From positions 62,001-126,000 of the IMG/VR virus record IMGVR_UViG_3300030329_006380: a DNA stretch of 64,000 nucleotides. One strand, written 5' to 3'. The stretch comes from a virus. How positions within the stretch are numbered: the first letter of the stretch is position 1; every line of letters begins with the position of its first letter. Below are positions 8,518-60,070 of the stretch, one piece after another. The notes beneath the pieces are model-generated. The model was not told the origin of the DNA and did not search any database. It saw only the letters and a program-made list of their open reading frames with translations. A program made the position numbers and the translations under genes.

Positions 8518-9222
8518 CTAGAGATCTCGGCAACACCGAAATCCCGTTTCATAAAATCTAAACAAATCTCCGTGATTGCTCACGGACTGTCGACAGTTTC
8601 GTGGCTCAGACCAGAACCTGCCTTTAAGTCTTCCGTTAAAATACCCCCTTCTGGTTTTTCTTTTCTTTGTCCACTCTTCCACATTCCCAAGCATATCGTA
8701 GACTCCGTAACCAGAGACACATCTCTCCATTGCGCCACTTGGTTCTGCCTGATATAATTCATGGATGTGGTTTGCCGCTTCATAAGAAATTGCCGAATGC
8801 TTTTCTGCATTGGACAATAACCCCAAGAAGCTATCAACCTCTGGATTAGAAAATCCTTTCCTCCAGACTCCAAGATAATATTTTGAATATTTTATCCATG
8901 TTTTACTGTCATTACACACTCCTTTTTCATATTTTGTCCCATATTTCCATGGCAAATCTTTTGGACCAACACAGGCTTTTGTCCACTCATCATCATAACA
9001 CAAGCGCTTGCCACGTGCCTGACACCATGCTTCACTCTCAACCATAGAATACATCACCAAAGGCTCGTCTCCTTTTTGATTGGGAGCTTCATATTTATCA
9101 ATACAAAAATCTTTTACTTTTATCATTCCCGCTGGACATGTTATTGTTTCCTCTGTTGCATAAAGAAAACCCATGCAAGTAAAAACACCAGTGAGTATAA
9201 CAATTGATGGCAACCTCTTCAT
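8518..9222 (-). CDS. Secreted FGE/SUMF1-fold protein
   Basis: This encodes 234 aa with an N-terminal signal peptide (hydrophobic stretch IVILTGVFTCMGFLYA, cleavage near ATEE). The rest matches the FGE-sulfatase/SUMF1 fold: ITCPAGMIKVKDFCIDKYEA, then AWCQARGKRLCYDDEW, a central YGVYDMLGNVEEW block and the closing GFRCC strand. Known members include formylglycine-generating enzymes, but many are non-catalytic ligand-binding relatives. It is rich in cysteines, suggesting disulfides in the periplasm. Its placement between recombination and primase genes gives no functional clue. I infer an exported protein acting on or binding envelope components rather than a true sulfatase activator. Confidence 0.85.
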   Translation of the reverse strand: MKRLPSIVILTGVFTCMGFLYATEETITCPAGMIKVKDFCIDKYEAPNQKGDEPLVMYSMVESEAWCQARGKRLCYDDEWTKACVGPKDLPWKYGTKYEKGVCNDSKTWIKYSKYYLGVWRKGFSNPEVDSFLGLLSNAEKHSAISYEAANHIHELYQAEPSGAMERCVSGYGVYDMLGNVEEWTKKRKTRRGYFNGRLKGRFWSEPRNCRQSVSNHGDLFRFYETGFRCCRDL

Positions 9223-30774: not shown

Positions 30775-32274
30775 TTATTCTACTCTGAATTTGAATATCT
30801 CGGGTTGTTCATGATATTGACCATTGATGTAATAAGTGAATCTTAAGTTGTATAAGTAATCCGGCTCGAAAAAACTCATATCTAGATCAAGATAACTCCC
30901 AGAGATATCATACGACATCTGTGTATGCTTCGTGCTCCCCGTGCCATAACTTATAACTTCTAAGTTATCGATGGCGCGTTCAACTTTATAATAAGCATCA
31001 TCAATTATTTCAGAAGCCATCACACTAGTTGCTTTTGTATAAATAGTTGGAGACCAATCTTTTTGTCGAATGAACAATCGAAGTCGCGGCTTCTCTTCTG
31101 CGGAGTATGTAGATTTCAAATTCTTTATAGTTGTTACGTATTCTGGATTGGTGCTATAATTTTGTGAACCAAATGTTTTGACTGTTATTGCACTACCGGT
31201 ATGATAAATAGTGTTGACGTGGGCACCGAGGCCTGAGCCAGAATGCCACACTGGATATATCGTTGTTGTTCCGGAAGAAGTATAAGCAAAGGAAGCTGAG
31301 TATATTCCCGTTGTAACCCAGCTAGCCGTAATATTTGCATCATTATTGGTCAATACGCCGCCGCCCAGTGGAAGTGTTATGTGATCACCACCGAGAGTTG
31401 AATAAAGGCTAACTAGCATATGACTAGTGCCAACACCGGGGATATCTTGATATTGTCCCCTAATATTATTATAGAGATATATATTGTTTAGATTATCTGC
31501 CGGAGGGGCGAGGGCGCTACTCAAATAAAAACTACCAGCATTATCTTTCTTCGCAGAATCCCAGCGCGCCTCTATTAGAGGACGTTTATTGAAATATTGT
31601 GTTCCGCGGGCAAAAAACTTCTTCGTATAAAATGATCCGGATGTTGATCCATCTTCTTGGCTGCCCGTAAGATAAACAGCAATGCCGAAATTATCATATC
31701 CGCCGGCCCCAGTGCCTGCAATCCATTTTTCCACTAAATCTGAAATATCGATTTCTAGATCCTCGGTGCCGCGGTCGAAATATTGAGTATAAATATTGCT
31801 AGTATAATCGTAATCGGAGGACGTTAAAAAATTGCCGCCTTCGGAAACCCACGCTGTTGTGCTACTAGCGGATATCCAGTTGGCATACCCTTTATCGGTA
31901 TACCCTTCCATATCGAGTCCTTCTCCTTCATCCCAAGACTGTGATATAGCAGAAGCCACCAGTGTAAATTGCCTAGGCAAAGTCTGACTATGGACGGCAT
32001 TGAACAAGCGTAAATAAAAACTTACGCTACCACTAGCAGGTATCGTATTGGCTGTTCGGTCATCCGATATTGCCGTAATCGGGAATTTATATAAAGCTCT
32101 AGATTTTTCTACAGAAGCTCCATCAGTGCTACTTGACACCTGCGAATAAATAGAAAATATTTCCGTAATATCTGATTCGCCCATATTTGAACCCGTGCCG
32201 CGGGTGGCGAGACCAGATTTATATGCATTTGTTATTGTGGTGTCAGCACTAGCTGTATATCTTGTTATTGCCAT
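30775..32274 (-). CDS. Virion protein with DNRLRE-like domain
   Basis: This encodes 499 aa. The N-terminal half (about 1-235) matches the DNRLRE-type jelly-roll: TASADTTITNAYKSG, SRALYKFPITAI, SVSFYLRLFNA, QSWDEGEGLDMEGYTDKGYA, the DLEIDISDLVEKWIAG strand-helix and the closing KRPLIEARW. The C-terminal half is beta-rich and includes NYSTNPEYVTTIKNL, reminiscent of the NPTY motif in the 10675 and 11884 proteins, and ends PEIFKFRVE. Such domains occur in secreted adhesins. A tail-surface role is inferred. It sits between the giant LamG protein and the gp6-like protein. Confidence 0.8.
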   Translation of the reverse strand: MAITRYTASADTTITNAYKSGLATRGTGSNMGESDITEIFSIYSQVSSSTDGASVEKSRALYKFPITAISDDRTANTIPASGSVSFYLRLFNAVHSQTLPRQFTLVASAISQSWDEGEGLDMEGYTDKGYANWISASSTTAWVSEGGNFLTSSDYDYTSNIYTQYFDRGTEDLEIDISDLVEKWIAGTGAGGYDNFGIAVYLTGSQEDGSTSGSFYTKKFFARGTQYFNKRPLIEARWDSAKKDNAGSFYLSSALAPPADNLNNIYLYNNIRGQYQDIPGVGTSHMLVSLYSTLGGDHITLPLGGGVLTNNDANITASWVTTGIYSASFAYTSSGTTTIYPVWHSGSGLGAHVNTIYHTGSAITVKTFGSQNYSTNPEYVTTIKNLKSTYSAEEKPRLRLFIRQKDWSPTIYTKATSVMASEIIDDAYYKVERAIDNLEVISYGTGSTKHTQMSYDISGSYLDLDMSFFEPDYLYNLRFTYYINGQYHEQPEIFKFRVE

Positions 32275-34091
32275 TATCTAACACTTCCCTTAATATTTGT
32301 AAAAAGTTTTTTGAATTCAAAGACTACATTCAGTGGAGCAGTAATATACCTCCCAGAGGGTGCTGTCTGATCCTCTACACTAAAGATTGTCTGAGAATAT
32401 CCAACGTTGGTCACTTGGTTGACTTTTACATGCGCAACATCTAATACACCCTTAACCTTTCGAAGTATATCATAAACCTTCGTTATGTAAAAAGGTTCGC
32501 CCATTTCCATAGTTTTCTGTCCTAATTTATTCACCAGTGCATTGGTGCATGATTGTAGGACCTCATATTTATTGTGATTATTCTCCGACACCACTATAAA
32601 CTCTAAACCCAGATTCACAATTTTACCATCAACAATATCTACGGCATCGTTAATCATTTTGTATTTCTGAATCCAAGTTTTTAAATTTGTCTTAAGTGCA
32701 TTATTTGGAACGGTTAAAAATCCATCGGCATCTTCGGATAAAATGTAAATATTCACGGTTCTTCTGTTACTATCATAATTTTGTATTACATTACATTTTT
32801 TAACTGCGCCGAAAGCAGCAGGCATATTATATACTATAGCACTGTAATCTGACTTGGTGACTGCGCGGTTTTGTGAAGCGAAAGTATCCATTATTCTTAT
32901 CTTCATTTCTTCAATCGTGGGTTTACTTATATCTCCAACGATCGATTCAACATTGTTACATTCAATTGAACTCTCCACGAATGTCTTGAGGGAGGAATCT
33001 AAAGCAGCCAACTCTTGCTCTTCGTAGGGAAACTCTAAAGTATATTCATTTACGTTCGCTACTGATCCCGCCTCAGCGTTAACCAATCCGGCACTATTGT
33101 GCCGATAAACTATATGCAGTGAAGTATCAACTGGGGCAATGCCAAATTTATCAGTCTCCACTATTTTAGTCGGATCAAATGTTTTATCAGTAATATAATC
33201 TCTCCCATAAAAATCAATTGCAACATTCTTCGGGTCATCAATTATATTGGTCTTCAATTCTGCTTCAGATCCATAGCCAAAAACTAATATTGTACTAGTT
33301 CTGGTATGTTCCACTGTGAACCTACGTGGGACAATTTGAGGTACCAAAACATTGGGTATGCTTACCTTACCTTCGCCAGTATTTGGAATCGCTCGATAAA
33401 TAACATTTTGAGAAAGATAATCAACCTCATAATATTCATTGCCCTCTGAATCTATAACACTGATTATCTCCGAGATATTTGCAGCCGGAATTGCTACCTT
33501 CTGGAATCTTCTAAATCCGCCGACTGCTATATCCGTGGAACTCTCCTGTCCGGATATAATTCGACCGGAAACTCTAACTGCTATAGCATTAACTCCTCCG
33601 ATAGACGCATCGTCTATTCTCGCAACAACATAATCAGCAACGGGTGAAGAAAAATCAACATCTTCAATTAAAGTAAATTGGACGCCACCGGTGGAAGATA
33701 CCTTTGATCCCTTCTTGAGGACCGGTAAATAAAATGGATCGGGGGTCAATCCATCAGTAGATGCTGGCACCAATACATAAAAATCTACAATCCCCTGTGA
33801 TACTGGGCTACCAGAGTATTTATATCCCATCTGGCGACCAATGCGCGATACATTGACGAATTCAGTTGCAGAGTCCAGATACAACTCATTAACTTGATAA
33901 TCTAAATAAAAAGATAAAATATCGCCAACATACGCTACGGTATCGATCATCAAAGAAGCAAATGATGCCTTGCTAAAATCTTTGAAAGAGTCTGAATAAT
34001 ATCGTGTAGCATAAGAGAGGAGGTCGCTTCTTATACTATCGTAATCTCGGCTAGTGTATTCGATTGGGACATATTTACGTTCTATTGGCAT
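32274..34091 (-). CDS. Baseplate wedge protein (T4 gp6-like, baseplate J type)
   Basis: This encodes 605 aa. The N-terminus has the conserved wedge pattern: IEYTSRDYDSIRSDLLSY, FASLMIDTVAYVGDILSFYL, NELYLDSATEFVNVSRIGRQ and MGYKYSGSP. Farther on, NRAVTKSDYSAIVYNMPAAF and the VNIYILSEDADGFL strand are typical of gp6/gpJ proteins. In T4, gp6 forms the inner iris of the baseplate and holds the wedges together. The gene follows gp25 in transcription as in many T4-like phages. GGAGTAAGT precedes the ATG. Confidence 0.93.
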   Translation of the reverse strand: MPIERKYVPIEYTSRDYDSIRSDLLSYATRYYSDSFKDFSKASFASLMIDTVAYVGDILSFYLDYQVNELYLDSATEFVNVSRIGRQMGYKYSGSPVSQGIVDFYVLVPASTDGLTPDPFYLPVLKKGSKVSSTGGVQFTLIEDVDFSSPVADYVVARIDDASIGGVNAIAVRVSGRIISGQESSTDIAVGGFRRFQKVAIPAANISEIISVIDSEGNEYYEVDYLSQNVIYRAIPNTGEGKVSIPNVLVPQIVPRRFTVEHTRTSTILVFGYGSEAELKTNIIDDPKNVAIDFYGRDYITDKTFDPTKIVETDKFGIAPVDTSLHIVYRHNSAGLVNAEAGSVANVNEYTLEFPYEEQELAALDSSLKTFVESSIECNNVESIVGDISKPTIEEMKIRIMDTFASQNRAVTKSDYSAIVYNMPAAFGAVKKCNVIQNYDSNRRTVNIYILSEDADGFLTVPNNALKTNLKTWIQKYKMINDAVDIVDGKIVNLGLEFIVVSENNHNKYEVLQSCTNALVNKLGQKTMEMGEPFYITKVYDILRKVKGVLDVAHVKVNQVTNVGYSQTIFSVEDQTAPSGRYITAPLNVVFEFKKLFTNIKGSVR

Positions 34092-34113: not shown

Positions 34114-34491
34114 TTAGTCCGTGAAGAATTTAAAATCTAATATATCGAATTCGTTTAGAGCAGGTATGAAGTAGCGAACATTCACTGTAATTCTATTGTC
34201 AGGTGAGTCGAAACCATCAATAGAAACCGTCTGCAGGCTTACTGCGGGTAAATATCGAGCTATTTGTTCTTGAATTCTTCCCTCGATTTCAATTGCAATT
34301 GCTGATGTCTTTTCTCTGAAAAGATATCTTTTTATTCCAACTCCAAAATCGGGGTCCATCATTCTTTCGCCCGGACTGGTCAATATTAACATTTTTAAAT
34401 TTTGCTTTGTTAGTTCCTTAAAGTTATTAATTAAAAGAAATCCATTTAATGAGTTCCTTGATAATGGTAATTTAACTGCTAATCCGGACAT
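34114..34491 (-). CDS. Baseplate wedge protein (T4 gp25-like)
   Basis: This encodes 125 aa, the normal gp25 length. Characteristic elements are NLKMLILTSPGERMMDPDFG, VGIKRYLFRE, a helix EGRIQEQIARYLPAVSL and closing strands ITVNVRYFIPALNEFDILDF. gp25 joins the sheath to the baseplate wedge and nucleates sheath assembly; despite the old name it is not a lysozyme. The ribosome site GGAGG overlaps the end of the 2964-aa gene. Confidence 0.94.
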   Translation of the reverse strand: MSGLAVKLPLSRNSLNGFLLINNFKELTKQNLKMLILTSPGERMMDPDFGVGIKRYLFREKTSAIAIEIEGRIQEQIARYLPAVSLQTVSIDGFDSPDNRITVNVRYFIPALNEFDILDFKFFTD

Positions 34492-43406: not shown

Positions 43407-44453
43407 CTAATTTGTTGAATTATGGTGGCTTAAAATATATTGTGGTGCCAGAGGTTGCAAATATTTAAATGAATCGGCAACTAAATTAATCCTACCCAAC
43501 AAACAAGGGAACGTACATTGCATTAACATATCAATATTAACTTTTATTCCGGCCGGCAAAGCAGAAAAGGAAAGAGAGGTGGGGGTGGCCGGTGTCGTCG
43601 TCGCGTGGCTGTGGAACATTAGTGCATTATTATATAATGCTTGTGTTTGTATGATATTATCGATAACATTATATATATCATTCAAGGTATCTAACACCGT
43701 ATTACAAAATTCATAAAGATTATTGCCCTTAACTAAGGGCTGTAGCTCCCATTTAGTACCGGGAGTATCCTTGTTGCCGGCTATTAAGTCAATTCCCTCA
43801 GGATGTGCCGCTTCCCAGCCTTGACCCAAAGAGTTTCTCTCATCGGCCCCAGTTATAATTTTAATTCCCGCATCTCGTGAAACCAATCTTATACCGTCAG
43901 CTTTTGCTAATACAAAAGACCTCGGCCAATAATCATTCCCTATTGTCCCTCCGGCCAGCGAATAATCCAAATCCATCCTAGATTTCTGCACAATTTTAAC
44001 ACGTGCAGCGTCCAAAGAAACATGGGGATCTGCATATAGTGGTTCAATCTCAAATTGATCCAGTGCTTTATCGCGAGATTTTGGATCAGAAACTGTTCTA
44101 GCAACAGTAACTTGATTAGTGCGTATCTTAGAATCAACTGTTACTGCACGAACTGCTGGGCCACATGGACCAGCGACTAAATCAATCATGCCGCATAGAG
44201 AGTGGCCCATGCCGCCATACCCAGTCAATCTAGATCCGGGCCTGTCAACACCTAAAGTTATTCTAGCCGTCCTTCTGTCGCTTTCAAGGACTTTTTCTGC
44301 ATCCGCCCTATTATAATAAGGCACTGGCTCAGTCATAAAAGTGCATGCCACTCCCTGAACCCTGCCTTCTATTTCTGCTACTGATCTCTGCACTGGATCC
44401 AATCGATCCGGATCATTAATTTTTTGATAAGTTCCAAAAACTGGATTTGTCAT
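43407..44453 (-). CDS. Baseplate spike-associated structural protein
   Basis: This encodes 348 aa. The central part is beta-rich with phrases such as SDPKSRDKALDQFEIEPLY, IRLVSRDAGIKIITG and EGIDLIAGN, followed by QPLVKGNNLYEFC, a helix, and MFHSHATTTPATPTS. Short beta repeats followed by QPxVKGxNL and a His-x-His segment recall central-spike proteins of contractile tails, where paired histidines can bind metal. It directly follows the three OB-fold hub genes in transcription, which supports a spike or hub role. This is a moderate-confidence inference. Ribosome site GATGAGGAG precedes the ATG. Confidence 0.75.
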   Translation of the reverse strand: MTNPVFGTYQKINDPDRLDPVQRSVAEIEGRVQGVACTFMTEPVPYYNRADAEKVLESDRRTARITLGVDRPGSRLTGYGGMGHSLCGMIDLVAGPCGPAVRAVTVDSKIRTNQVTVARTVSDPKSRDKALDQFEIEPLYADPHVSLDAARVKIVQKSRMDLDYSLAGGTIGNDYWPRSFVLAKADGIRLVSRDAGIKIITGADERNSLGQGWEAAHPEGIDLIAGNKDTPGTKWELQPLVKGNNLYEFCNTVLDTLNDIYNVIDNIIQTQALYNNALMFHSHATTTPATPTSLSFSALPAGIKVNIDMLMQCTFPCLLGRINLVADSFKYLQPLAPQYILSHHNSTN

Positions 44454-44489: not shown

Positions 44490-45800
44490 TTACGGCCGGA
44501 TTATCTGAACATAGTTATCCGGCCATGTCAAAACTTCACGTGTTCCAACATACCATGGCTGTTTAAGAGACTTTTGACTACTAGGATTTCCCGGATCTGG
44601 CTGGACCGATACGTGCTGAAATACGCACCTATCTCCATCTTGACATGTTCCTCCCAGTCTAACCGGTACATTTTTCCTAGTTACTGAGCCCAAAGCAAAA
44701 TCTGTGACTTTGGGCTTGGGATTTCTTACTTGACCCTTTGCCCACGACATCGTTAAGTTCATCATTTTAGATTTTTTATTAATTGTTTCTGACAGGGTCC
44801 AAGATTGAAGTTTTGCTCGCCATGATGTGCGATGTGTAGAGCACTTATCTGTTCCATGGCTCTTTGCACCTTTAGCGCAGAATTTACCAGACGCCAACCA
44901 AAGAGGGTTAATTGGTTGCGAATACGCTCGAATTGTCTTATAATAAGAACTACCATAGCTGTTACCACGAAGTTTAAAAATAACAAATTTTAAGGCCATA
45001 GACCATAGAGTCAAATCTAGATGACCACCTTCTCCAACAAGCATCTTGGCGGCCCAAAATATATCTGCATCTGTAAGCTGATAATTGATTTTTCTATCAG
45101 AAGTAATTATTCTCCCCCATTTCCCATCGAACCCTAAACGTCGGGCTTCCTGCAGATCGGCGGCGGGGATTGATGGAGGAGGAATTGTTGCAGTAATTGG
45201 GCCGGATTGTCTTCCAGAAGTTGAGGAACCCCCCGCAGTACCTATAACATTTGTTCTTTTCAGTCCTGCCGCGGCTTCGGCACCTAGATATAATGGGTCT
45301 TCTCTGGTAGCGAGATTCCCGAATCTAACACGAACTATTTGACCGGGGTTTGGTATTTCCACAGAATCAGATTGCGCATAAAAAGTTGGATACATATCAA
45401 TTATTGGATGCCAACATTTCGAAATCTTCTTACCGGTAAGTTTTGATAAACAATCTTCACTGCCGGTAAATACTGGTACCGGCAACATATAATGTAATTC
45501 TGGGATTCTAACTTTAACGGCGACTAGTGTTGGCGGAGTAGAAGACTTACCTCTATATTTTTTCATTGGAAAGGAACCGGGCTCATAAGGAAACTTAGAA
45601 TTATTTGAACTGCCTAGCGATTGTTCTACACGCAATACCACACCAACAAAATCTTCTCTTTTGCTGGTAATATCATGATTGTGTTGGTCCTCGGCTATCT
45701 TTTTAGAAGTATTAACAAAATTAGTGTTATTGTTCTTTCTGTGACCAAACTTACTAGCCTTAGTGGGGTTGATAATTGAGTCTAAATTTTCAATGCTCAT
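44490..45800 (-). CDS. gp5-like OB-fold hub protein with unassigned C-terminal domain
   Basis: This encodes 436 aa. Residues about 50-175 are the OB-fold module shared with the next two genes upstream: FVGVVLRVE, YEPGSFPMKKYRG, VAVKVRIPELHYMLPVP, HPIIDMYPTFYA, and a PGQIVRVRF strand. A Gly/Ser/Pro linker follows (190-213). The C-terminal domain includes LTDADIFWAAKMLVGEGG, IRAYSQPINPLWL and a cysteine-bearing block near CAKGAKSHGTDKC. The WAAKMLVGEGG motif is faintly like the (A)RxxxGEA motif of SleB-type cell-wall hydrolases, so a peptidoglycan-active domain is possible but unproven. T4 gp5 is the trimeric hub with a lysozyme insert. Confidence 0.82.
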   Translation of the reverse strand: MSIENLDSIINPTKASKFGHRKNNNTNFVNTSKKIAEDQHNHDITSKREDFVGVVLRVEQSLGSSNNSKFPYEPGSFPMKKYRGKSSTPPTLVAVKVRIPELHYMLPVPVFTGSEDCLSKLTGKKISKCWHPIIDMYPTFYAQSDSVEIPNPGQIVRVRFGNLATREDPLYLGAEAAAGLKRTNVIGTAGGSSTSGRQSGPITATIPPPSIPAADLQEARRLGFDGKWGRIITSDRKINYQLTDADIFWAAKMLVGEGGHLDLTLWSMALKFVIFKLRGNSYGSSYYKTIRAYSQPINPLWLASGKFCAKGAKSHGTDKCSTHRTSWRAKLQSWTLSETINKKSKMMNLTMSWAKGQVRNPKPKVTDFALGSVTRKNVPVRLGGTCQDGDRCVFQHVSVQPDPGNPSSQKSLKQPWYVGTREVLTWPDNYVQIIRP

Positions 45801-45809
45801 GATATGTTC

Positions 45810-47453
45810 CTAAGCCTTCACGCTCGATGCATTTGGAGAAGAAGTTTTATTATATGTTATTTCATTGCTTTTCTTCCAATATAATTCTAAACCTGGAGTG
45901 GGAGCAATTCTTTTTCCCGTTGCCCCTGAAGTTGTATGAGTGGTTATTGTCGCGGCCATATGTATTCCGGAGACCTCTACCTCTATCCATCCATATTCCT
46001 GTCCAACATCGCTCTGTAATCTCCTTCGAACCATGCTGCGAAGATGGAAGCCGGCCTGTGCTTTTTTTGAAACGGTGGCGATAAATAATTTTGCGCAAGG
46101 GTCAGGATGGGTCTTTACTCTCATGAATTCGCCTGTTTTTTTCCATCCATATGGCTGAGTTTCTCCGCGGCCGATGAATCTAGGCTGCGAAAAATTAAAT
46201 ATTGGACTCGTAGCACAGCGGCCGCGTGGAACAAATTTTGCACCAGATGATGGTGTGGATGTACCAGATTCACGCTTTGGGGGCCCAGGGCGGCCCTTAC
46301 AATAAGGGTTACCATCATAAGATTGTTTCGACGAGCGGGCGGATTCAGCAACCGATGGATCGCCCTTAAACTCAAAATGCATAGAATCAACATACCCCTT
46401 CCAGTCGCCGCCCCAACTAAATCCATACCTCTTAAATGCTGCTATCACACACTCCGGAAGATCATAAATTAATACACCTTGTTTTGCGGGGTTTTGTGCA
46501 GGATTAATGTCAATTGCTGTTCCCCATGCATGATTACTAATACCTATCTTGCAATCATTAGGAAACGTACCTTGATGTCTCATGCACCTGCAGGCATACG
46601 TTCCGGGTCCCGGAAGGCCTTGATAGAATTTATAATTCTGAGCTTCTTGGCACATGGCTATATCTGCTTCCACCATCTCAAAAGCAGCAGCAGCAGCGGG
46701 ATTAACCGGTATTTTTCTATTCCTAAAATTCACGTTTGCCCTTTTACCTTTACATGGTGCACCATAAAATTGATCTCTCATTTGGGCGTTTCTTACAACT
46801 ACCGGAACACGTGGATAACTACCACATGTCGCAGCCGGAATATTGGCTCCGCCGCCCGGTATTCCTCCGCCTCCGCCTCCGCGGCCAACCCCATAGCTTC
46901 TTGCGCCACCGGTGGTTGCAACCGTTGGAGCAAAGTACTTAGTTTCGGAGCTTATATATATGGGATCGGTGCCGGCATTAAAATTTCGGAATGTTACACG
47001 TACAAGTTCTCCGGGATCTGGGGTTGGGAGATCACTGGTTTCCGCATAAAAAGTTGGATATAGGTCTATTATCGGGTGATGACATTTCTTTACTGTGTCT
47101 TTATCGCTACATGGCTCTGACCCCAATTGGTTTGGGACAGGAAGCATGGCATGGATCTCCGGTATCCGAACTTTAATCGCAACTAATTGCGGGGCTGTCT
47201 CACCACGATATTTTTTAGTCATCAGTGATCCTGGCTCAAAGGGCCATGAAGAATCACCAACAGTATTAGTTTCCACCCTTAAAACCATCCCAACATAGAA
47301 CTTTCTTTTTTTTGTTGTATCCTTTGTGTATTGAGCTTCCGCTAGTTCTTTAACTGAGGAAGTATATTTCTTGCCTCGCGTATGTCGCGGGCCATATTTA
47401 GACGGCGCATCATGCGTTATGTGCGATTCTAAAAATGATTTATCACTTACCAT
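45810..47453 (-). CDS. gp5-like OB-fold hub protein with M15 peptidase domain
   Basis: This encodes 547 aa from the ATG at 47453 (MVSDKSFLES). The open frame extends 10 codons to a TTG that would run into the upstream gene. The OB-fold module spans about 50-175 (VAIKVRIPEIHAMLPVP, HPIIDLYPTFYA). A glycine-rich linker lies at about 190-203. Residues about 240-365 are an M15-type D-Ala-D-Ala or L-Ala-D-Glu peptidase, with zinc ligands His308 (SNHAWGTAIDIN), Asp315 and His359 (MHFEF). A further 175-residue C-terminal region is unassigned. It would cleave peptidoglycan cross-links or stem peptides during tail penetration. Confidence 0.9.
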   Translation of the reverse strand: MVSDKSFLESHITHDAPSKYGPRHTRGKKYTSSVKELAEAQYTKDTTKKRKFYVGMVLRVETNTVGDSSWPFEPGSLMTKKYRGETAPQLVAIKVRIPEIHAMLPVPNQLGSEPCSDKDTVKKCHHPIIDLYPTFYAETSDLPTPDPGELVRVTFRNFNAGTDPIYISSETKYFAPTVATTGGARSYGVGRGGGGGGIPGGGANIPAATCGSYPRVPVVVRNAQMRDQFYGAPCKGKRANVNFRNRKIPVNPAAAAAFEMVEADIAMCQEAQNYKFYQGLPGPGTYACRCMRHQGTFPNDCKIGISNHAWGTAIDINPAQNPAKQGVLIYDLPECVIAAFKRYGFSWGGDWKGYVDSMHFEFKGDPSVAESARSSKQSYDGNPYCKGRPGPPKRESGTSTPSSGAKFVPRGRCATSPIFNFSQPRFIGRGETQPYGWKKTGEFMRVKTHPDPCAKLFIATVSKKAQAGFHLRSMVRRRLQSDVGQEYGWIEVEVSGIHMAATITTHTTSGATGKRIAPTPGLELYWKKSNEITYNKTSSPNASSVKA

Positions 47454-47473
47454 TTCGTGATATCCCCATAAAT

Positions 47474-48772
47474 CTAAGACCAATCAACTATGCCATTACT
47501 AACTCTCTGGCAGCGTTCTATCATTTTTTCATAAGCGGCGCGTGGTGGAAGACCCCTTGATCTAAAATAAGTATATGTCATTTGCGTAGTACCATCTGCT
47601 CTGCGAGAAGGCGATATGTGAGAGTGCGCCAATAGGCCTGGCGGGGGTGGATTTGACCGGGACCAATCTCCCTTAATAGTATAGTCTGTACCATTAAGAC
47701 CCACCCACCTCATCGGTGTAGAAGTCTGACCAGTGACTTGTCTAACAATCGTCCACGCTGATTCATAAGAAGCTAGCGGAGGTACCGGATATGTTCTAGA
47801 AATCCAATGTGAAAAATTATAAATTCGTACCGGAACCTTCTCTACGCTTTGATATGTTTTCCTATGCCACCCTTGTAAAGCTCTTGCTTGGAATGGATTA
47901 ACGACTTCGAAGCCAACAGATCTAGGGTTGTATAAACTCCCTGCGTGAACGCCCCATTGGTCATAACTAGCTAAATTCCACAGTTTTCCATCCCATCCAA
48001 CATAATGGTGCAAAAAACCCGATTTACTGTTATTGACATAATTAATACTCTTCCCAGCATGCATTGGGCCGCCAGTTTCATGCATAACTAACCACACCAC
48101 ATCGCTTGTAGCTCTCTGATATGTTCGGTTCCATCCTGTAAACCCTTCAGGGAGGACTGCGCCCTGAAAATTCTTCCAATTTCCCGAAACGGTCTTGACT
48201 GCGCCATACGCAGATACAGAAGTTCCATCACCAATGGCCATCCTTAGGTTCCCTGTCTCCGGCGATAAATAAACCGGATCTTTAAAATTATTTAAATCAC
48301 CATATTTAACCCTAACAATATCACCGGGTGCTGGAGTTGGGACCCCCGGATTGATTGCATAAAAGGTAGGATACAAATCAATAATAGGGTGGTGACATCT
48401 TTTTAAAATATTTCTATTTCTTTTCCCAGTGCAATCAGTGGCTGGTCCTCCAGAGGGAATGGATGGCACTGGTAGCATGGTGTGAAGCTCTGGGATACGA
48501 ACTTTTATCGCAACCAATTTGGGAGGAGTCCCTGTTTTAGCGCGATATTTCTTAAGAGGCATTGAGCCAGGTTCGTATTCTCCCTCTCCACTAGTACTAG
48601 CTTCAACACGAAGAACGATGCCGCAAAAAGTACCCTGTTTATCAGTGGCATCATTTTGAAATGCCTTTTCATTGGTTTTTTTTGCAGATTTTACAAAATC
48701 TGTATTAACATCATCTCGCGGCCCGTATTTCGGAGCATCGAACCAGTTTAAGAAGGTATCTAAAACCGACAT
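47474..48772 (-). CDS. gp5-like OB-fold hub protein with N-acetylmuramoyl-L-alanine amidase domain
   Basis: This encodes 432 aa. The OB-fold module is at about 48-172 (FCGIVLRVEAST, VAIKVRIPELHTMLPVP, HPIIDLYPTFYA, PGDIVRVKY). The C-terminal domain, about 215-425, is Amidase_2/PGRP-like: VVWLVMHETGG with His231, SGFLHHYVGWDGKLW, GVHAGS with His276, VGFEVVNP with Glu289, and a final HSHISPSRRADG that supplies the last zinc ligand. It would cut the bond between MurNAc and the stem peptide. It is the first of three tandem OB-fold paralogues. GGCGGAG precedes the ATG, which overlaps the upstream stop (TAATG). Confidence 0.9.
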   Translation of the reverse strand: MSVLDTFLNWFDAPKYGPRDDVNTDFVKSAKKTNEKAFQNDATDKQGTFCGIVLRVEASTSGEGEYEPGSMPLKKYRAKTGTPPKLVAIKVRIPELHTMLPVPSIPSGGPATDCTGKRNRNILKRCHHPIIDLYPTFYAINPGVPTPAPGDIVRVKYGDLNNFKDPVYLSPETGNLRMAIGDGTSVSAYGAVKTVSGNWKNFQGAVLPEGFTGWNRTYQRATSDVVWLVMHETGGPMHAGKSINYVNNSKSGFLHHYVGWDGKLWNLASYDQWGVHAGSLYNPRSVGFEVVNPFQARALQGWHRKTYQSVEKVPVRIYNFSHWISRTYPVPPLASYESAWTIVRQVTGQTSTPMRWVGLNGTDYTIKGDWSRSNPPPPGLLAHSHISPSRRADGTTQMTYTYFRSRGLPPRAAYEKMIERCQRVSNGIVDWS

Positions 48773-49074
48773 TATTCTCCGCCTTGAATTATCTCAAATA
48801 GTTCATCGCGATCCTCGTTGGTCAACTCATTTGAAGCATCTTTTTTCTTCTGCAACAAGGAAGCTAATTTAACCAACTGTTCATTTGAACGCTGCAGTGT
48901 CTCTACATATTTTGCTGCGATCAGGCCGACGCCTCTATGGTTTTCATCTGATTTCTTTATATAGGCCAAAAGATCGACCAACAATGTTTTTGTTAACGAG
49001 CGATCTTCATGGATATTTTCTACGGCCTCTTTTATAAATTCTTCAGTGCTTTTTAAATCTTTCCCGTATCCCAT
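48772..49074 (-). CDS. Small helical phage protein, unknown function
   Basis: This encodes 100 aa, wholly helical and charged (MGYGKDLKSTEEFIKEAVEN, then LLVDLLAYIKKSDENHRGVG, AAKYVETLQRSNEQLVKLAS and the acidic end DELFEIIQGGE). There are no cysteines, signal or membrane segment. It overlaps the sigma-factor gene by 22 bases and the amidase-hub gene by TAATG, so it is probably co-transcribed with both. I recall similar small proteins beside gp55 homologues in marine phages, but no function is known. Confidence 0.78.
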   Translation of the reverse strand: MGYGKDLKSTEEFIKEAVENIHEDRSLTKTLLVDLLAYIKKSDENHRGVGLIAAKYVETLQRSNEQLVKLASLLQKKKDASNELTNEDRDELFEIIQGGE

Positions 49075-49763
49075 TTCTTTTTAAATTCCCTATATCGTGC
49101 GCGGAGCTTGTTAAGGTTATTGACAATCTGTTTTGTGTTAAGTCCTGTAAGTTCTCGCAAGTATAGATAAATAGCCTTTTTATTGAAAATTTCTATTTCG
49201 TCACAGCTTTTAAGAAGTATTTTAACAGCCTCAAGTACTTTCTTTTCATTCTCCTTTAAAGAGCCAGTATCCCAAGTTTCGATCTCCGTCCATAGGTAAT
49301 GCCAGAATTCTGCTTCTTCGCGCCATGTGTCATATTCATTATATACAACCATATTATCTGATGCAGGTTCCTCCATGAAATAGTCTTCATAAAGCACCTC
49401 TCTCTTGTTTCTTTTAGAAGTTTTCTTAACCTCGTGAATAAACCAATTTTTTGTAATTACACTGAAATAGGAAAATGCCTTTGATCCCTTGTTCGGATCA
49501 TATTTGTCCAATATTGTTGTTAACCAGATTTTACAATCTTCCCGAAGACAGTCGATATTCGGAAGTGTTGTAAATTTGTAAGTATATACGATTTTATCAA
49601 CCATTTCGCTAAACACAGGCCCAATAAATTTAATATATAAATCACTTCGAATATCGGCATCTTCTGTATTAGCATATGCTACTATTGCATCTTCATGCAC
49701 TTGAGTGAAGTACTGCTTCTTCTTGCTCCGTCGGCGCCGGGTCTTCCTCTTCTTCTCTGTCAT
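49053..49763 (-). CDS. Late-transcription sigma factor (T4 gp55-like)
   Basis: This encodes 236 aa. After a strongly basic N-terminus (TEKKRKTRRRRSKKKQYFTQ), the region HEDAIVAYANTEDADIRSDL, then KFIGPVFSEMVDKIVYTYKF and the YDPNKGSKAFSYFSVITKNW block match gp55-like or sigma-70 region 2 core-binding helices. gp55 directs host RNA polymerase to late promoters, together with the sliding clamp in T4. AGGAG lies about 9 bases before the ATG at 49763, so the 71-base overlap with the upstream gene appears real. The long C-terminal part lacks a clear region 4, as in gp55. Confidence 0.88.
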   Translation of the reverse strand: MTEKKRKTRRRRSKKKQYFTQVHEDAIVAYANTEDADIRSDLYIKFIGPVFSEMVDKIVYTYKFTTLPNIDCLREDCKIWLTTILDKYDPNKGSKAFSYFSVITKNWFIHEVKKTSKRNKREVLYEDYFMEEPASDNMVVYNEYDTWREEAEFWHYLWTEIETWDTGSLKENEKKVLEAVKILLKSCDEIEIFNKKAIYLYLRELTGLNTKQIVNNLNKLRARYREFKKKWDTGKI

Positions 49764-54902: not shown

Positions 54903-55499
54903 TTATTTTCTCCAGTTATTATTTTTGTTAAGGTATTCATTTGGATTATAAGACTTAATCGGTGTTTTCCAGTCGCCATAATAAAATGTCAAATATTCTT
55001 CTGCGGGACCAGGAAGAATAAAATCTCTGCCCCTGAAATTAAATTTCTCGCCATTGTTATAATATTTATTAGGGAATTTCTGTTGTAAGTCACATCGATA
55101 TCCCATGCCATTATCATAAAGAGCACTAGTTGCAATTTTGATGCCGTGTTTAAAAAATGCCATTTTGCTAGTTTTTCCCCTGAATGTGGCGCGGGTGATG
55201 AATCCATGACTAATAAACGTCTCCTTAATTTCTTCAAAACGTGGTACATAAACCTCAGAAAAAATCTCAATATCAATTTCATCATCCCATGAGATAAAAT
55301 CCCCATCGCGATAAAACCCTAAAGCGGTACCGCAAGACAAAAAATATTTTATTCCCAATTCTCTAAAGATATCATCAACCTCTAAAAGTGCTAACGATGC
55401 TGCTTCCCTATCCATACCTTTGTTGGGTACATGATAATTGTGCCTCACTTTTCGCCATTCCTCAGTTGATAAAAGACTTATTATTTCATTTTGTTTCAT
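54903..55499 (-). CDS. LicD-family phospho(no)transferase
   Basis: This encodes 198 aa. The LicD/fukutin nucleotidyltransferase-like core is clear: ELGIKYFLSCGTALGFYRDG followed by DFISWDDEIDIEIF, the acidic residues being metal ligands. LicD proteins move phosphocholine or a similar head group from a CDP/CMP-activated donor to a sugar. Next to a cytidylyltransferase and a 2-aminoethylphosphonate pathway, the natural donor would be CMP-aminoethylphosphonate; this is inference. It is one of two tandem paralogues (ATGA overlap). Confidence 0.88.
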   Translation of the reverse strand: MKQNEIISLLSTEEWRKVRHNYHVPNKGMDREAASLALLEVDDIFRELGIKYFLSCGTALGFYRDGDFISWDDEIDIEIFSEVYVPRFEEIKETFISHGFITRATFRGKTSKMAFFKHGIKIATSALYDNGMGYRCDLQQKFPNKYYNNGEKFNFRGRDFILPGPAEEYLTFYYGDWKTPIKSYNPNEYLNKNNNWRK

Positions 55500-56086
55500 A
55501 TATACAGACTCCTGTTAAAGTAATTTTCTTTCGACGGAGTATTCCAATCTTTACCATATGTATGTTCTACATATCCCAGTACATCAGGAGCCTGGAAATT
55601 CATATTTTTAAAAATTATATTTTGACCTCTCTCGTATAAACTGGCTGGCCATTTGTACCTATACCTATAGCGTATTTTTTTGACCGGATTTAAATAAAGG
55701 GCAGCGATGCCGACTTTTTCACCAGAATGATAAGCATTAATCTTCATATTGGGGTACTCTCTAATCCCCCTAGTGATATATCCTAAGTGAGTTAATTTGT
55801 TTTTTATAGTATCAAATTTAGGTATCAATTGTTCTGCAAAGACGTCCATATCTACATCGGGATCCCACTGGATGAAGTCGCCTTCTCTTAGATAACCCAA
55901 TAGAGTGCCGCCGGAAAGAAACAAATCTACACCTTCCTCTGATAATATTTTTTTAAAATTTGCCATTATTTCCATTCTTGCGTTGAAATTGTAATTTGGA
56001 AACGAATTCAAGAGCGCATCTTTGTTCTTCTTTTTATATCTAATCCACTCCGAATGTGACATACTGCTAATCTCAATATTATTCAT
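55496..56086 (-). CDS. LicD-family phospho(no)transferase, paralogue
   Basis: This encodes 196 aa. The core reads EEGVDLFLSGGTLLGYLREG then DFIQWDPDVDMDVF, the same layout as the neighbour but with a Pro in place of one acidic residue (WDPDVD versus WDDEID). The N-termini also match (MSHSEWIRYKKKNKDALLNS versus LSTEEWRKVRHNYHVPN). Two copies may act on two positions or two glycans. It starts 8 bases inside the cytidylyltransferase gene. Confidence 0.88.
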   Translation of the reverse strand: MNNIEISSMSHSEWIRYKKKNKDALLNSFPNYNFNARMEIMANFKKILSEEGVDLFLSGGTLLGYLREGDFIQWDPDVDMDVFAEQLIPKFDTIKNKLTHLGYITRGIREYPNMKINAYHSGEKVGIAALYLNPVKKIRYRYRYKWPASLYERGQNIIFKNMNFQAPDVLGYVEHTYGKDWNTPSKENYFNRSLYI

Positions 56087-56486
56087 AATCCTCTTTTATT
56101 CTCTCAATGATAGCGGTCGTAGAGACATGCTTAGTTCTAGGTACATATTTCATAATACCCATTTTTATTGGTACTGCCTGCTGTCTTAGGAGTTCGGGCG
56201 TGATATCATCGCCCCTAACAACATAGTCAATTTTGTTCTCCCCTAAGAACTGTTCGGTCATGATAAGAGGTGCTGCCTCTATTACTTCATCGACATATCT
56301 ACAAGCGCGGACCAATTCATATCTCTGTGACTCATTGATGATAGGTACTCTTTTATAACTAGCAATATCAGCATCTGAGTGGACACCAACAATCAAATAG
56401 TCTCCTTGTTCGCGCGCCCTCTTAATCAGATTTAAGTGACCCAAGTGGAATAAATCTGCTGCCATATCAGTGTATATACGTATCAT
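56079..56486 (-). CDS. Cytidylyltransferase (TagD / ethanolamine-phosphate CT-like)
   Basis: This encodes 135 aa, the length of single-domain TagD-type enzymes. The HxGH nucleotide-binding motif is in ADLFHLGHLNLIKRA (residues about 10-24), then YLIVGVHSD, ERVRACRYVDEVI-like VRACRYVDEVIEAAP, and the C-terminal ISTT-like motif in RTKHVSTTAII. These enzymes couple CTP to a phosphate, giving a CDP product. Here the predicted acceptor is 2-aminoethylphosphonate, giving a CMP-phosphonate. Known phosphonate-activating PntC enzymes belong to a different (LicC-like) fold, so this would be a non-orthologous replacement. Phosphoethanolamine is the alternative substrate. Confidence 0.9.
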   Translation of the reverse strand: MIRIYTDMAADLFHLGHLNLIKRAREQGDYLIVGVHSDADIASYKRVPIINESQRYELVRACRYVDEVIEAAPLIMTEQFLGENKIDYVVRGDDITPELLRQQAVPIKMGIMKYVPRTKHVSTTAIIERIKEDYE

Positions 56487-56487
56487 C

Positions 56488-57471
56488 TTATACTGTGTCC
56501 TTAAAGGCTTTAACTATTTTTTTAAATTTGATATCAAAATCCACGCTCATTGTCGCGACTCTGAAGCTACGGTCTACGCCATCAACACCCGAGTAAATAA
56601 CAATCTTGCGACTCAATAGAAAATCATGTAATTTTTTGTATCCCATTCTAGGATGTTTAAATGCAATTATTGAATTCGCCGGATTAGAATTAATACACTC
56701 GATTCCGATAGATGACATAGCGGATATTAATTTTTCTCTTCGAAGGTTAAATATTTTTTCATTTTCCAAGCTTTGGTCAACAGTATATTCTAAAGCATAT
56801 ACCGATTGTGTTGGCAGCGTAAAAGGCAAATGACCCAATTGATACTTCGAAAGATTTCCATAATAAGATCGATCAAAAATCTGCATCTCTTTATTCCACA
56901 ACACTATTCCTAAGCCCGGAGTTGACTGTAGGCACTTGTTACTACAAAAAGACAATGCCGCTATCCTATGACCAAGTTTTTTATAGTCGGAGGCGCCAAA
57001 AGCAGAGGTGGCATCAATAATAAATTTAGCCTCTGGGTAGATCTTGCACATCTTCTCTAGAGAATAATGCTCCCCTGTAGAAGTCTCATTTTCAACATAA
57101 TAAACATACTTAACATCTCTATTTTCAACCAAATCATCAACTATTCTAGAGTTGACCTGCGCGCACTGAATGTTATATGTTTTGAAAATTTCCATTGCAC
57201 GTTGACCATACTTGCCGGCGTTGACAACAAGCGTATCATTTGGTGCCAGTGAAGATATCATGGCTTCCATTGCCGCTGTTCCGGATCCACAAAGAATTGC
57301 GATTCGGCCGGCCGATGAAAATTTTACAGCACTTAAAAGTTTCTCCTGTAGTGATCTGAGTACTGCCTTGAAGGTGTCTTCTCTATGACAAATATCACTG
57401 CCCAGCCACTGCTTTATTTTAGTCAGAAACCTAGTATTTGTAGGTCCGGGATTCAATAGGATATCAGACAT
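56488..57471 (-). CDS. PLP aminotransferase, PhnW-like (2-aminoethylphosphonate:pyruvate)
   Basis: This encodes 327 aa, class V aminotransferase fold. It opens with LLNPGPTNTRF and has CHRED at 28-32, the cofactor loop GSGTAAMEA at 62-70, Asp153 in FIIDATSAFGA, and the Schiff-base Lys179 in SFCSNKCLQSTPG. The NPGPTN and SNKCLQ motifs are those of PhnW-type enzymes, which interconvert phosphonoacetaldehyde and 2-aminoethylphosphonate. Placed directly after the decarboxylase genes it would work in the biosynthetic direction. Serine-glyoxylate-type aminotransferase is a less likely alternative. Confidence 0.88.
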   Translation of the reverse strand: MSDILLNPGPTNTRFLTKIKQWLGSDICHREDTFKAVLRSLQEKLLSAVKFSSAGRIAILCGSGTAAMEAMISSLAPNDTLVVNAGKYGQRAMEIFKTYNIQCAQVNSRIVDDLVENRDVKYVYYVENETSTGEHYSLEKMCKIYPEAKFIIDATSAFGASDYKKLGHRIAALSFCSNKCLQSTPGLGIVLWNKEMQIFDRSYYGNLSKYQLGHLPFTLPTQSVYALEYTVDQSLENEKIFNLRREKLISAMSSIGIECINSNPANSIIAFKHPRMGYKKLHDFLLSRKIVIYSGVDGVDRSFRVATMSVDFDIKFKKIVKAFKDTV

Positions 57472-57928
57472 TCAAAAAACTCCGGAGATTCTCAATATTC
57501 TCTTTACATGAGAGGCCAACACGAGGAGTTTTACCATCATTGGAAATTTTTATAATCTCGTTAACGCCAACATAATTAAGCTCCAAGTCAGAGCATTTAT
57601 ACTCGCCAACTGACTCGTGGCAACCATTATCCAGTACGTAAATATATAGATTACCGAGGGCCTCATCCCTAATGGTATGGGTAATCCCCAGATGCATAAG
57701 AAGTGATGCATCACCCACAAATACTACAACATCTTTATCAATATTCCTTGCAGCCCCCAGCCCTATTGCCGGTGAAAGACCCATACTGCCTTGCATATAA
57801 AGAATATTTTTATTATCCGGGTATATATTATATATTGCGCGGGACAAATACCCAGTATTCGTAATATATAAAGAATTCTCTCCGTGTCTTTCAAAAATAT
57901 TTTTTATCGCTTCCTCTCTACTTAGCAT
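57464..57928 (-). CDS. Phosphonopyruvate decarboxylase, TPP-binding (C-terminal) subunit
   Basis: This encodes 154 aa from the ATG at 57928 (MLSREEAIKN); the frame could begin at a GTG four codons earlier. Typical elements of the TPP pyrophosphate domain are GSMGLSPAIGLGAA near 47-60, the metal motif GDASLLMHLG beginning at 72, and Asn101 in VLDNGCHESVGEY. In most bacteria this domain and the partner encoded upstream form one protein. Here they are two overlapping genes, as in archaeal sulfopyruvate decarboxylase. Context with PEP mutase and PhnW favours phosphonopyruvate. Confidence 0.88.
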   Translation of the reverse strand: MLSREEAIKNIFERHGENSLYITNTGYLSRAIYNIYPDNKNILYMQGSMGLSPAIGLGAARNIDKDVVVFVGDASLLMHLGITHTIRDEALGNLYIYVLDNGCHESVGEYKCSDLELNYVGVNEIIKISNDGKTPRVGLSCKENIENLRSFLNV

Positions 57929-58313
57929 TATTTTCACCACATATCAAAATATAATTTGAGTAACCAATTAAATCCAAGATCTTTTGATCAACCTCCCCCA
58001 TCACTTTGTGTTGAGGAAGCGTGTGTCTGTGTCCAATTATCAACAATGGTTCAATACCAAAGGGGATACACAAACTAGTCAAGGGATTAATACAATTTCC
58101 CAGTCCAGAATTCTGTAAATATACACATGGTTTCTTGCCGGCTAGGGCTGCGCCGAAAGCTATAGCTACCGCCTGCGATTCATGTACCGCTATTATATTT
58201 GGCACACCAGATGCAAGGATATCATTTTGGAAATTCTTTAAAGCACTGTCCGGAACACCGGTGAAAAAATCGTATCCCTGTTTAGATAATCTTGAATAGA
58301 GGTCATGATCCAT
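57918..58313 (-). CDS. Phosphonopyruvate decarboxylase, PYR-domain (N-terminal) subunit
   Basis: This encodes 131 aa. The family motif FTGVPDSALKNF lies at residues about 17-28. The TPP-activating glutamate is Glu45 in IAVHESQAVAIAFGAAL. YLQNSGLGNCINPLTSL and LLIIGHR complete the match to phosphonopyruvate/sulfopyruvate decarboxylase N-terminal domains. It ends with a stop codon overlapping the next gene by 11 bases, so the two halves are probably made together and form a complex. It overlaps the PEP mutase gene by 11 bases. Confidence 0.9.
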   Translation of the reverse strand: MDHDLYSRLSKQGYDFFTGVPDSALKNFQNDILASGVPNIIAVHESQAVAIAFGAALAGKKPCVYLQNSGLGNCINPLTSLCIPFGIEPLLIIGHRHTLPQHKVMGEVDQKILDLIGYSNYILICGENNAK

Positions 58314-59169
58314 ATTTATCCTGATTCTCCTTCATTTCATCCACAGCAATCAAATCAAAGATGGTTGTCATGGGAACCACAAAATCATTTCCGGCAGAAA
58401 GAGTACCCTCTTTAATAATAGTCGTAAACATAGATTCTAGAGTGTTAACTGTAGCCCTGACGGAGTAATTAGCATAGATTGCCAAGCTTACACCACAGTT
58501 CCTCATCTGTTCCGTTGTCATCTGGTTGTATGTGGTGGGAACAATAACCAAAGGCGTTGTCAACCCCTCTTTGTGATATCGATCGCAAAATTTTAAAACT
58601 TCATCCGGTGTCTTATTCTTGTTGTGGATCAGGAAGCCGTCGCAACCAGCATCAGTATATGCCTTTGCTCTCTCGATGGCGACGTCAATGCCTCTGTTTT
58701 GTATGAGAGCCTCTGTACGTGCAATCACCGCGAAACCTTCCTTGTTATTCTTCTCCAAGGCCGCTTTAATCTTTCCAACTGTCGTAGGTGTTTTTTCAAG
58801 TACTTTCTTCATACCATAAAAAGAACATCTCTTAGGCGAAGGGTTATCCTCGATGCACATCGCCCATGCACCAGCCTTAGAATATTCACGTGCCATCCGG
58901 ATAGTGTTGATAGCACTTGGACCACCTTCATCTGCGTCAACTAAAATAGGTATATTCACTCGATCTGCAATCTTGCTAATCGCGTCTGCATAGTCAGCTA
59001 CATTCAAAATTGATGCATCTGGGAATCTGTTCCATGCGTGCATCTCAAAACTAGAAAGCCAAATCGCGTCAAATCCTGCATTTTCGGCCAACTTTGCTAT
59101 CATTGCATTACTTGCACCGCAAGCCAAACTTAATTTTTCATCTCTCAATAAATCTTTTATGGTTCTCAT
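58303..59169 (-). CDS. PEP mutase-like enzyme (isocitrate lyase/PEP mutase superfamily)
   Basis: This encodes 288 aa, the usual PEP mutase length. It begins LLRDEKLSLACGASNAMIAK, then GFDAIWLSSFE, an Asp at 51, PILVDADEGG with Asp78/Asp80, and CIEDNPSPKRCSFYG with Glu107/Asp108, Lys113 and Cys115. PEP mutase makes phosphonopyruvate, the entry to nearly all natural phosphonates. The loop is unusual: the family hallmark EDKxFPKxNS has Asn where this protein has Cys, a feature of lyases in the superfamily. Gene context (decarboxylase and PhnW next) argues strongly for PEP mutase. Phosphonopyruvate hydrolase or a lyase cannot be excluded from sequence. Confidence 0.85.
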   Translation of the reverse strand: MRTIKDLLRDEKLSLACGASNAMIAKLAENAGFDAIWLSSFEMHAWNRFPDASILNVADYADAISKIADRVNIPILVDADEGGPSAINTIRMAREYSKAGAWAMCIEDNPSPKRCSFYGMKKVLEKTPTTVGKIKAALEKNNKEGFAVIARTEALIQNRGIDVAIERAKAYTDAGCDGFLIHNKNKTPDEVLKFCDRYHKEGLTTPLVIVPTTYNQMTTEQMRNCGVSLAIYANYSVRATVNTLESMFTTIIKEGTLSAGNDFVVPMTTIFDLIAVDEMKENQDKYGS

Positions 59170-59179
59170 ATCACTTCCC

Positions 59180-60070
59180 TTATTCCGTGACGAAGTTTAA
59201 ATACTCTTTTGCTACGTTATGCATATTATAGCAAGAATCATAGGAATTGTCAAGTTTATTATTAAAGTTCAAGACCTTGGGGGAATATAAATCTATTGGT
59301 GAAAAATCCCATTCCTCTTCTTCAATAATAATTGCATTAGGGCCTGCTATTTCCTTGGTCCCTCCGGAGGATGAACATATCACCCTGCACCCGCACGCGC
59401 GGGCGTCGACAACAACATTTGGACAATGATCTAGCCATGCCAAGTGAATAAAATACTTTGAAGCTTTGTAGATTGAAATTAACTGCCTCTGATTTAAGTG
59501 GCCCAAGTATTTAATTCTAGGATGTTTAATCGGTTCTTCGTTAGTTGAACCAGCAACCAAAAGACAATCTCTTGCGCCCGAATGCTCTAAAAAATATCTT
59601 ATATTTTCTGATAATCTTTTGTGAGGGCGCCACGATGAAGCGCATACCCAAATATTATCATAATTCTGCGAGAACTCATCAATAGGAGAAACCTGATCAA
59701 TTAATTCTAAATCTGCGCCATTGTGAATGACCCTGTAGTTCTTGTGTGGGCCAAACCACCTAAAAATAAGATCTTTGTTGAAAGTGGACTGAAATATTAC
59801 CCCACTAGAATGTCTGTATGTTCGAAGAATATTACTATTCTTTATATCATAATTCTCTTGTGTATTAAAATAAATGCCATCTAATCTCTGAAAAGTGGGC
59901 ATAGAATTAATGTTTTTACGATGGGACTCGATAAAACATAGGCTGATATCGGAGATTCTTAGGTCGGTAACCTCACACCCCAAGATATTGAATTGATTTT
60001 TTAATTTTTGAGCAAATGAATTCGGGCCGCTGTTGCTACCCAAGTTAACATTTTCTAGGCATATTTTCAT
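59180..60070 (-). CDS. GT-B glycosyltransferase (GT4-like)
   Basis: This encodes 296 aa, starting MKICLENVNLGSNSGPNSFA, a GxGxFA-like acceptor-domain start. The donor half carries VCASSWRPHKRLSENIRYFL, VAGSTNEEP and YLGHLNQRQLISIYKASKYF, and the sugar-nucleotide site HCPNVVVDARACGCRVICSS with the GGTKEI turn. It is shorter than most GT4 enzymes but looks intact. It overlaps the double-domain transferase by ATGA and precedes the phosphonate genes by 11 bases, linking the two pathways in one transcript. Confidence 0.9.
   Translation of the reverse strand: MKICLENVNLGSNSGPNSFAQKLKNQFNILGCEVTDLRISDISLCFIESHRKNINSMPTFQRLDGIYFNTQENYDIKNSNILRTYRHSSGVIFQSTFNKDLIFRWFGPHKNYRVIHNGADLELIDQVSPIDEFSQNYDNIWVCASSWRPHKRLSENIRYFLEHSGARDCLLVAGSTNEEPIKHPRIKYLGHLNQRQLISIYKASKYFIHLAWLDHCPNVVVDARACGCRVICSSSGGTKEIAGPNAIIIEEEEWDFSPIDLYSPKVLNFNNKLDNSYDSCYNMHNVAKEYLNFVTE

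Follow-up and report, generated by a model that had tools for sequence, protein, structure and literature searches.

Tandem genes joining a gp5-like docking domain to different wall-degrading modules in an uncultured T4-related phage

In the baseplate locus of an uncultured T4-related phage, three consecutive genes encode paralogous proteins (A, B and C) that share an N-terminal domain (N-domain) resembling the OB domain of T4 gp5 but end in three different modules, i.e., an Amidase_2 amidase, an M15 peptidase and a third, distinct module. Contractile tails usually have a single spike base, which is a trimer, and tail-tip bases are normally described as the homotrimer of a single gene product. 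We propose, at chances that we would put at about even, that A, B and C are co-made spike-base subunits which carry different enzymes and most likely meet as a mixed trimer at one tail tip. The stretch of DNA analyzed, called the window below, comprises 64 kb (positions 62001-126000, G000:C1) of an IMG/VR record of 136,483 bp.

Three tandem paralogues with different C-terminal modules

An earlier note on this DNA had claimed three tandem paralogues with differing C-terminal parts, and both statements hold. A, B and C are ORFs that follow each other on the minus strand with almost no gaps (Table 1), and their N-domains align pairwise over 170-215 residues with 41-49% identity (BLASTP E-values of 1e-46, 6e-46 and 6e-51, far beyond chance). 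Homology extends over the first ~175 residues, and further on the sequences are unrelated. A three-way alignment of the N-domains contains 65 invariant columns, and the two signatures quoted in the note, VAxKVRIPExHxMLPVP and HPIIDxYPTFYA, are present and nearly invariant in all three proteins. The reading frame of B opens with a TTG at 47483 (45810-47483, 557 aa), and the ATG at 47453, which gives 547 aa, is the likelier start. The stop of the small gene preceding A overlaps the start of A (TAATG). A, B and C probably form one operon and would hence be co-transcribed.

The C-terminal modules appear on the coding strand in the order amidase (A), M15 (B) and third module (C), the first two scoring well over the Pfam cut-offs (35.9 bits for Amidase_2 in A with a cut-off of 26, and 68.5 bits for Peptidase_M15_4 in B with a cut-off of 25). 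In B, the motifs SNHAWGTAID and SMHFEF correspond to SxHxxGxAxD and the later H of M15 peptidases. A further Amidase_2 gene resides in the same genome outside of the window; it is a candidate for the lysis endolysin, so that A is less likely to function in lysis.

Table 1. Features of the locus, listed in coding-strand order with window positions
Feature	Position	Strand	Evidence
Late sigma factor-like gene, syntenic marker of the locus	49053..49763	-	PHROG 234 (late sigma transcription factor), 3.3e-5
Small conserved gene directly upstream of A, 100 aa	48772..49074	-	Counterpart in L206
Paralogue A, 432 aa: gp5-OB-like N-domain, Amidase_2 amidase	47474..48772	-	ORF, Pfam, BLASTP
N-domain of A (residues 1-179)	48236..48772	-	HMM match
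Amidase_2 match in A (residues 224-313)	47834..48103	-	Pfam PF01510, 1.1e-8
Paralogue B, 547 aa from ATG: N-domain, M15 peptidase, C-terminal ~120 aa without family	45810..47453	-	
N-domain of B	46887..47438	-	HMM match
Peptidase_M15_4 match in B	46371..46541	-	Pfam PF13539, 7.8e-19
Paralogue C, 436 aa: N-domain, SQPINP module	44490..45800	-	ORF, BLASTP
N-domain of C, predicted helix 26-42 followed by five beta strands	45243..45800	-	HMM match, structure model
SQPINP module of C (LVGEGG from 45041, SQPINPLW from 44921)	44490..45095	-	Pattern, phmmer, model
Candidate spike protein, 348 aa, conserved downstream gene	43407..44453	-	Alignment
Giant gene between candidate spike and gp25, 2964 aa	34495..43389	-	ORF, synteny
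gp25-like small baseplate gene	34114..34491	-	By position and size; annotated counterparts
gp6-like baseplate wedge protein	32274..34091	-	tblastn to Immutovirus baseplate wedge protein, 7e-65

Relationship of the shared domain to T4 gp5

When a profile of the N-domain (91 rows) was compared by hhalign with the gp5 OB domains of T4, Vibrio phage D525, Campylobacter phage Los1, cyanophage S-RIM2 and Salmonella phage Maynard, a probability of 83.3% (score 33.5) was obtained, whereas 60 column shuffles reached at most 1.8% (maximum score 16.2) and the reversed profile 0.2%. The alignment is colinear and places VKVRIPELH opposite VRVRVVGLH and PGQIVRVRFGN...LYLG opposite EGTRVYGHFLD...IVLG. Judged from this profile comparison and its controls, the N-domain is a remote homologue of the T4 gp5 OB domain. 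Direct searches with the single paralogues or a three-sequence profile yielded no match in named phages, IMG/VR patterns or PDB sequences, and Pfam Gp5_OB (PF06714) and Phage_base_V (PF04717) did not match the N-domain at E<=10.

Nearly all of the best PDB matches that Foldseek lists for the model of C are to ribosomal protein S12, which has an OB fold too; these matches are weak (E 0.06-0.4). In BFVD, four stronger unnamed proteins are followed by a gp5/VgrG OB protein and several hub or tail-lysozyme entries. The best BFVD matches, A0A1B1IUR3, A0A1B1IUR4 and A0A1B1IUT8, bear near-consecutive accessions and are perhaps tandem paralogues in another phage. As to the gp5-like hub proposed in the earlier note, the profile comparison bears out a gp5-type OB docking domain, but the C-terminal triple-stranded beta-helix of gp5 is absent from the A, B and C chains, which terminate in their enzyme modules.

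The third module defines a conserved family

The C module carries ...MLVGEGG...AYSQPINPLW... and was not recognized as a member of any Pfam, PHROGs or NCBIfam family. When IMG/VR was searched with a degenerate DNA pattern encoding [FY]SQPINPxW, 20 sites were hit, with none expected from shuffles of the window, and 17 of these sites encode relatives of the C module (phmmer E-values of 2e-31 to 1e-9), many of which are small free-standing proteins. One of the 17, in L206, is an N-domain protein with a SQPINP module at the syntenic place. The family is marked by E...[FY]SQPINPxW, in which no variation is seen in SQPINP, two W and one R and hardly any in the glutamate; none of nine relatives scanned has a confident Pfam or PHROGs family.

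The core of the module is predicted to be alpha-helical (pLDDT about 90-95). No PDB match to it is present among the 50 matches listed, and the BFVD matches of the C model include several SleB or cell wall hydrolase entries, all weak (E 0.4-4). Pfam SleB/Hydrolase_2 (PF07486) found nothing in the G000, L206, L202 and L191 records at E<=10, with controls matching. What had been described as a possible SleB-like motif thus proves to be part of a real conserved family, but this family is not Pfam SleB. The module is probably a glycan-strand hydrolase or transglycosylase, and it presumably cleaves glycans in the manner of SleB or a lysozyme, in which case the glutamate of GEGG would be the catalytic acid.

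Neighboring genes

The membrane-piercing spike is probably provided by the separate gene downstream of C. Its product features an HxH at residues 281-283 that is invariant in 12 relatives and that we tentatively liken to the HxH of spikes such as P2 gpV. Iron-tipped spikes of the P2 gpV/phi92 gp138 type are beta-helices with a C-terminal HxH. The model of the candidate spike is poor (pLDDT 58) and puts the HxH between two helices; a fold search with this model gave no matches, and comparison with Immutovirus-type spike proteins gave no profile match. The counterparts of the adjacent giant gene in relatives range from about 1.4k to 4.3k aa.

Two further regions of the window, both on the minus strand, merit mention. 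An apparent 2-aminoethylphosphonate pathway at 54903-60070 comprises PEP mutase (2e-41), a phosphonopyruvate decarboxylase that is divided between two ORFs, an AEP aminotransferase-like gene, a cytidylyltransferase, two LicD-family genes and a glycosyltransferase; NCBIfam equivalog scores are under their cut-offs. An FGE-sulfatase (formylglycine-generating enzyme-like) domain protein is encoded at 8518-9222 (PF03781, 1.9e-14).

One docking domain and many enzymes in related phages

Relatives were reached via searches with TerL and the adjacent late sigma factor. Altogether, 93 syntenic loci including the window have sigma factor and spike-like genes flanking one or more N-domain genes, the order being late sigma factor, N-domain gene(s), spike-like gene, giant gene and gp25/gp6 (where the contig reaches that far), which places the N-domain genes in a baseplate cluster. 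Of the first 93 stretches examined with an iterative HMM, 85 gave an N-domain match, and L206 and the L161 pair are additional. This census overlooks divergent N-domains (the L161 pair was recognized by eye and BLAST, and single genes in L128, L144, L145 and L164 are unmatched), and the copy numbers given here are therefore lower bounds.

Most loci contain one N-domain gene. The 62 single-copy members inspected with Pfam combine this one domain with about a dozen enzyme classes: Amidase_2 and VanY (9 each), M15_4 and SLT (4 each), M23 and DUF2272 (3 each), muramidase, phage lysozyme, GDSL and GH19 (2 each) and Amidase_3, CHAP and M74 (1 each). Moreover, the N-domain proteins of L114, L103 and L182 lack a recognized enzyme, and a free-standing enzyme gene lies beside the N-domain gene in L112 and L124 (VanY-like), L114 (SLT-like) and L206 (SGNH-like, by motif). 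The variety of enzymes and the existence of N-domain proteins without one point to the N-domain as a docking unit; taken together with the free-standing enzymes, they make the domain the constant structural part and the enzymes its interchangeable loads. As the range of classes is already present in single-copy relatives, enzyme swapping is general, and multiplication the special feature.

Some loci show peculiarities of their own. In L096 (11387-12481) and L160 (8721-9791; PF00091, 1.3e-7), an inserted tubulin/FtsZ-like gene separates the sigma factor gene from the N-domain gene. The C-terminal modules encoded at L161:10407-11930 and L128:9050-10573 have H...S-x-GC-like motifs that recall L,D-transpeptidases, and the module of L161 is unmatched in Pfam.

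Recurrent multiplication of the docking domain

Two or three N-domain genes are present at six of the 93 loci. The search for the arrangement in related phages, which the earlier note had suggested, thus led to five loci besides the window, and within each of them the modules differ: Amidase_2/VanY in L096 (= G008), M74/M23 in L098 (= G005), GDSL/weak muramidase/Amidase_2 in L135, M23/module without class/GDSL in L139 and Amidase_2/module without class in L161, compared with Amidase_2/M15/SQPINP in the window. Mapped on a tree of the sigma factors, the multi-copy state requires six changes, at least five of which are forced by supported branches. According to this tree, the multi-tool arrangement arose independently, in about six separate changes, and it therefore probably represents a genuine means of arming a tail and not a curiosity of a single genome.

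N-domains are 42-84% identical within a genome, the best match in another genome reaching 30-42%. The L161 pair is the extreme case, with 84% identity over 191 residues and unrelated sequence thereafter. In the N-domain tree, within-genome clades are strongly supported for L139, L096 and L098 and weakly for the set from the window, and the clade of L135 is broken, its third copy grouping with L148/L149. Where estimable, dN/dS between copies is about 0.1-0.27, indicating purifying selection on the docking domain, and dS ranges from about 0.6 to over 2, most pairs being at or near saturation at synonymous sites. Both observations imply that most copies are old and have been maintained under constraint; the L096 copies (dS 0.64) are possibly a younger pair or have undergone gene conversion. 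No multi-copy set repeats an enzyme class. Resampling from the 62 single-copy proteins, many of which lack a Pfam class, with M15 and VanY merged by hand, yields the same outcome in about 15% of trials, and the unrepeated classes therefore do not by themselves prove selection for complementary activities.

How the paralogues may be assembled

We propose that A, B and C function as subunits in the spike base of a contractile tail and that each is presumably docked at the tail tip by a short N-terminal helix and the gp5-type OB domain. A would serve as N-acetylmuramoyl-L-alanine amidase, B as M15 peptidase on stem or cross-link peptides and C as a probable glycan-strand hydrolase or transglycosylase. 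The docking domain would be an interchangeable holder for lytic enzymes, several versions of which are co-expressed to arm one tail tip; packing into one operon implies that versions with matching docking faces and different enzymes are made together. As a first guess from the gene analysis, these versions would most likely be built into one tail tip as a mixed trimer, and one injection event would attack several peptidoglycan bonds. An obligate heterotrimer, composed of one copy each of three gp5-type subunits so that amidase, peptidase and glycan-cleaving enzyme are presented together at a single entry point, is a tentative refinement that we hold to be rather less probable than its negation; if true, the maximum copy number seen, three, would reflect the trimer.

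We favor mixed trimers over alternative homotrimers and the latter over separate baseplate sites. Homotrimers of each copy could equally fit the docking domain and the apparent operon that the copies have in common, and single-copy relatives manage on one enzyme, so that one homotrimer must be functionally sufficient. Each paralogue would then form its own spike base, and the virions of one burst would differ in their enzyme, a form of bet-hedging on hosts or wall chemistries. We regard this as rather unlikely, as each activity would be diluted across virions and mixing accounts at least equally well for the resemblance between the N-domains of one genome. Less probable still appears a scenario in which only one paralogue is the true spike base, the others having been relocated to different sites of the baseplate, where they act as accessory hydrolases of the virion: L112, L124, L114 and L206, which pair an N-domain protein with a free-standing enzyme, illustrate that enzymes can join without a docking domain, but the complete docking domain would be superfluous for an accessory enzyme, and all three N-domains have kept the core signature with none being degenerate.

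The rarity (six of 93) and scatter of the multi-copy state might also be taken to indicate transient duplications that stem from the swapping of enzyme modules, with the extra copies being lost or unused. The dS values combined with a conserved domain speak for mostly old, maintained copies, and the reading frames are intact, which makes this explanation improbable. We attach the least weight, a very small one, to late endolysins or wall enzymes that have a binding domain in common and are not parts of the tail tip. Their enzyme families are indeed those of endolysins, but the similarity to the gp5 OB domain, the baseplate synteny, the N-domain proteins without recognized enzyme and the separate amidase gene in the genome all argue against such a role.

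Comparison with known systems and implications

T4 gp5 likewise has an OB domain near the N-terminus followed by a wall-cutting enzyme and is encoded near gp6 in the baseplate cluster. T4 differs in having one gene, one enzyme (lysozyme) and the C-terminal beta-helix on the same chain, whereas here up to three genes provide different enzymes and the spike is probably a separate gene. In cyanophage A-1(L), the spike gp25 also starts with a helix and an OB fold and several hydrolase domains are located at one tail tip, but lysozyme, endoglucanase and peptidase domains all reside on a single polypeptide, the hub gp15, a trimer of one gene product (PMC10966104), and are not spread over paralogous genes. 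The hub gp147 of Bacillus phage 0305phi8-36 is fused to transglycosylase, NLP and M23 domains, which are swapped in a relative (PMC2147016); unlike the proteins described here, it is of the gp27 type and a single large chain. The sets of 'evolved' VgrGs in type VI secretion resemble A, B and C in being spike paralogues that are related to gp5 and differ in their C-terminal effector domains, although they belong to a secretion system that exports effectors. For VgrG1-3 of V. cholerae, a heterotrimer with the C-terminally extended VgrGs has been reported as required, while in Aeromonas several effectors, and not heterotrimery itself, have been argued to be needed (PMC8668125).

Immutovirus and Microcystis phage Mel-JY01 have related TerL and gp6, but a single larger spike-like protein takes the place of the genes in the window, and no N-domain paralogues were detected in their baseplate locus; in Mel-JY01, a separate putative chitinase lies beside the baseplate genes. 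Several hydrolases at one tail tip on a single chain and paralogous effector spikes in type VI secretion are thus already known. With limited terms, our search of the open-access literature turned up no phage for which tandem paralogues of the gp5 type carrying different wall enzymes had been described.

In the environmental phages of this large group, one docking domain holds enzymes of about a dozen classes, and in several lineages, independently of one another, two or three loaded versions are kept next to each other. The SQPINP module adds a phage family that is absent from Pfam, PHROGs and NCBIfam. Heteromeric phage spikes, as reported for type VI VgrG, become testable, and the docking domain offers a naturally modular scaffold for wall-cutting enzymes.
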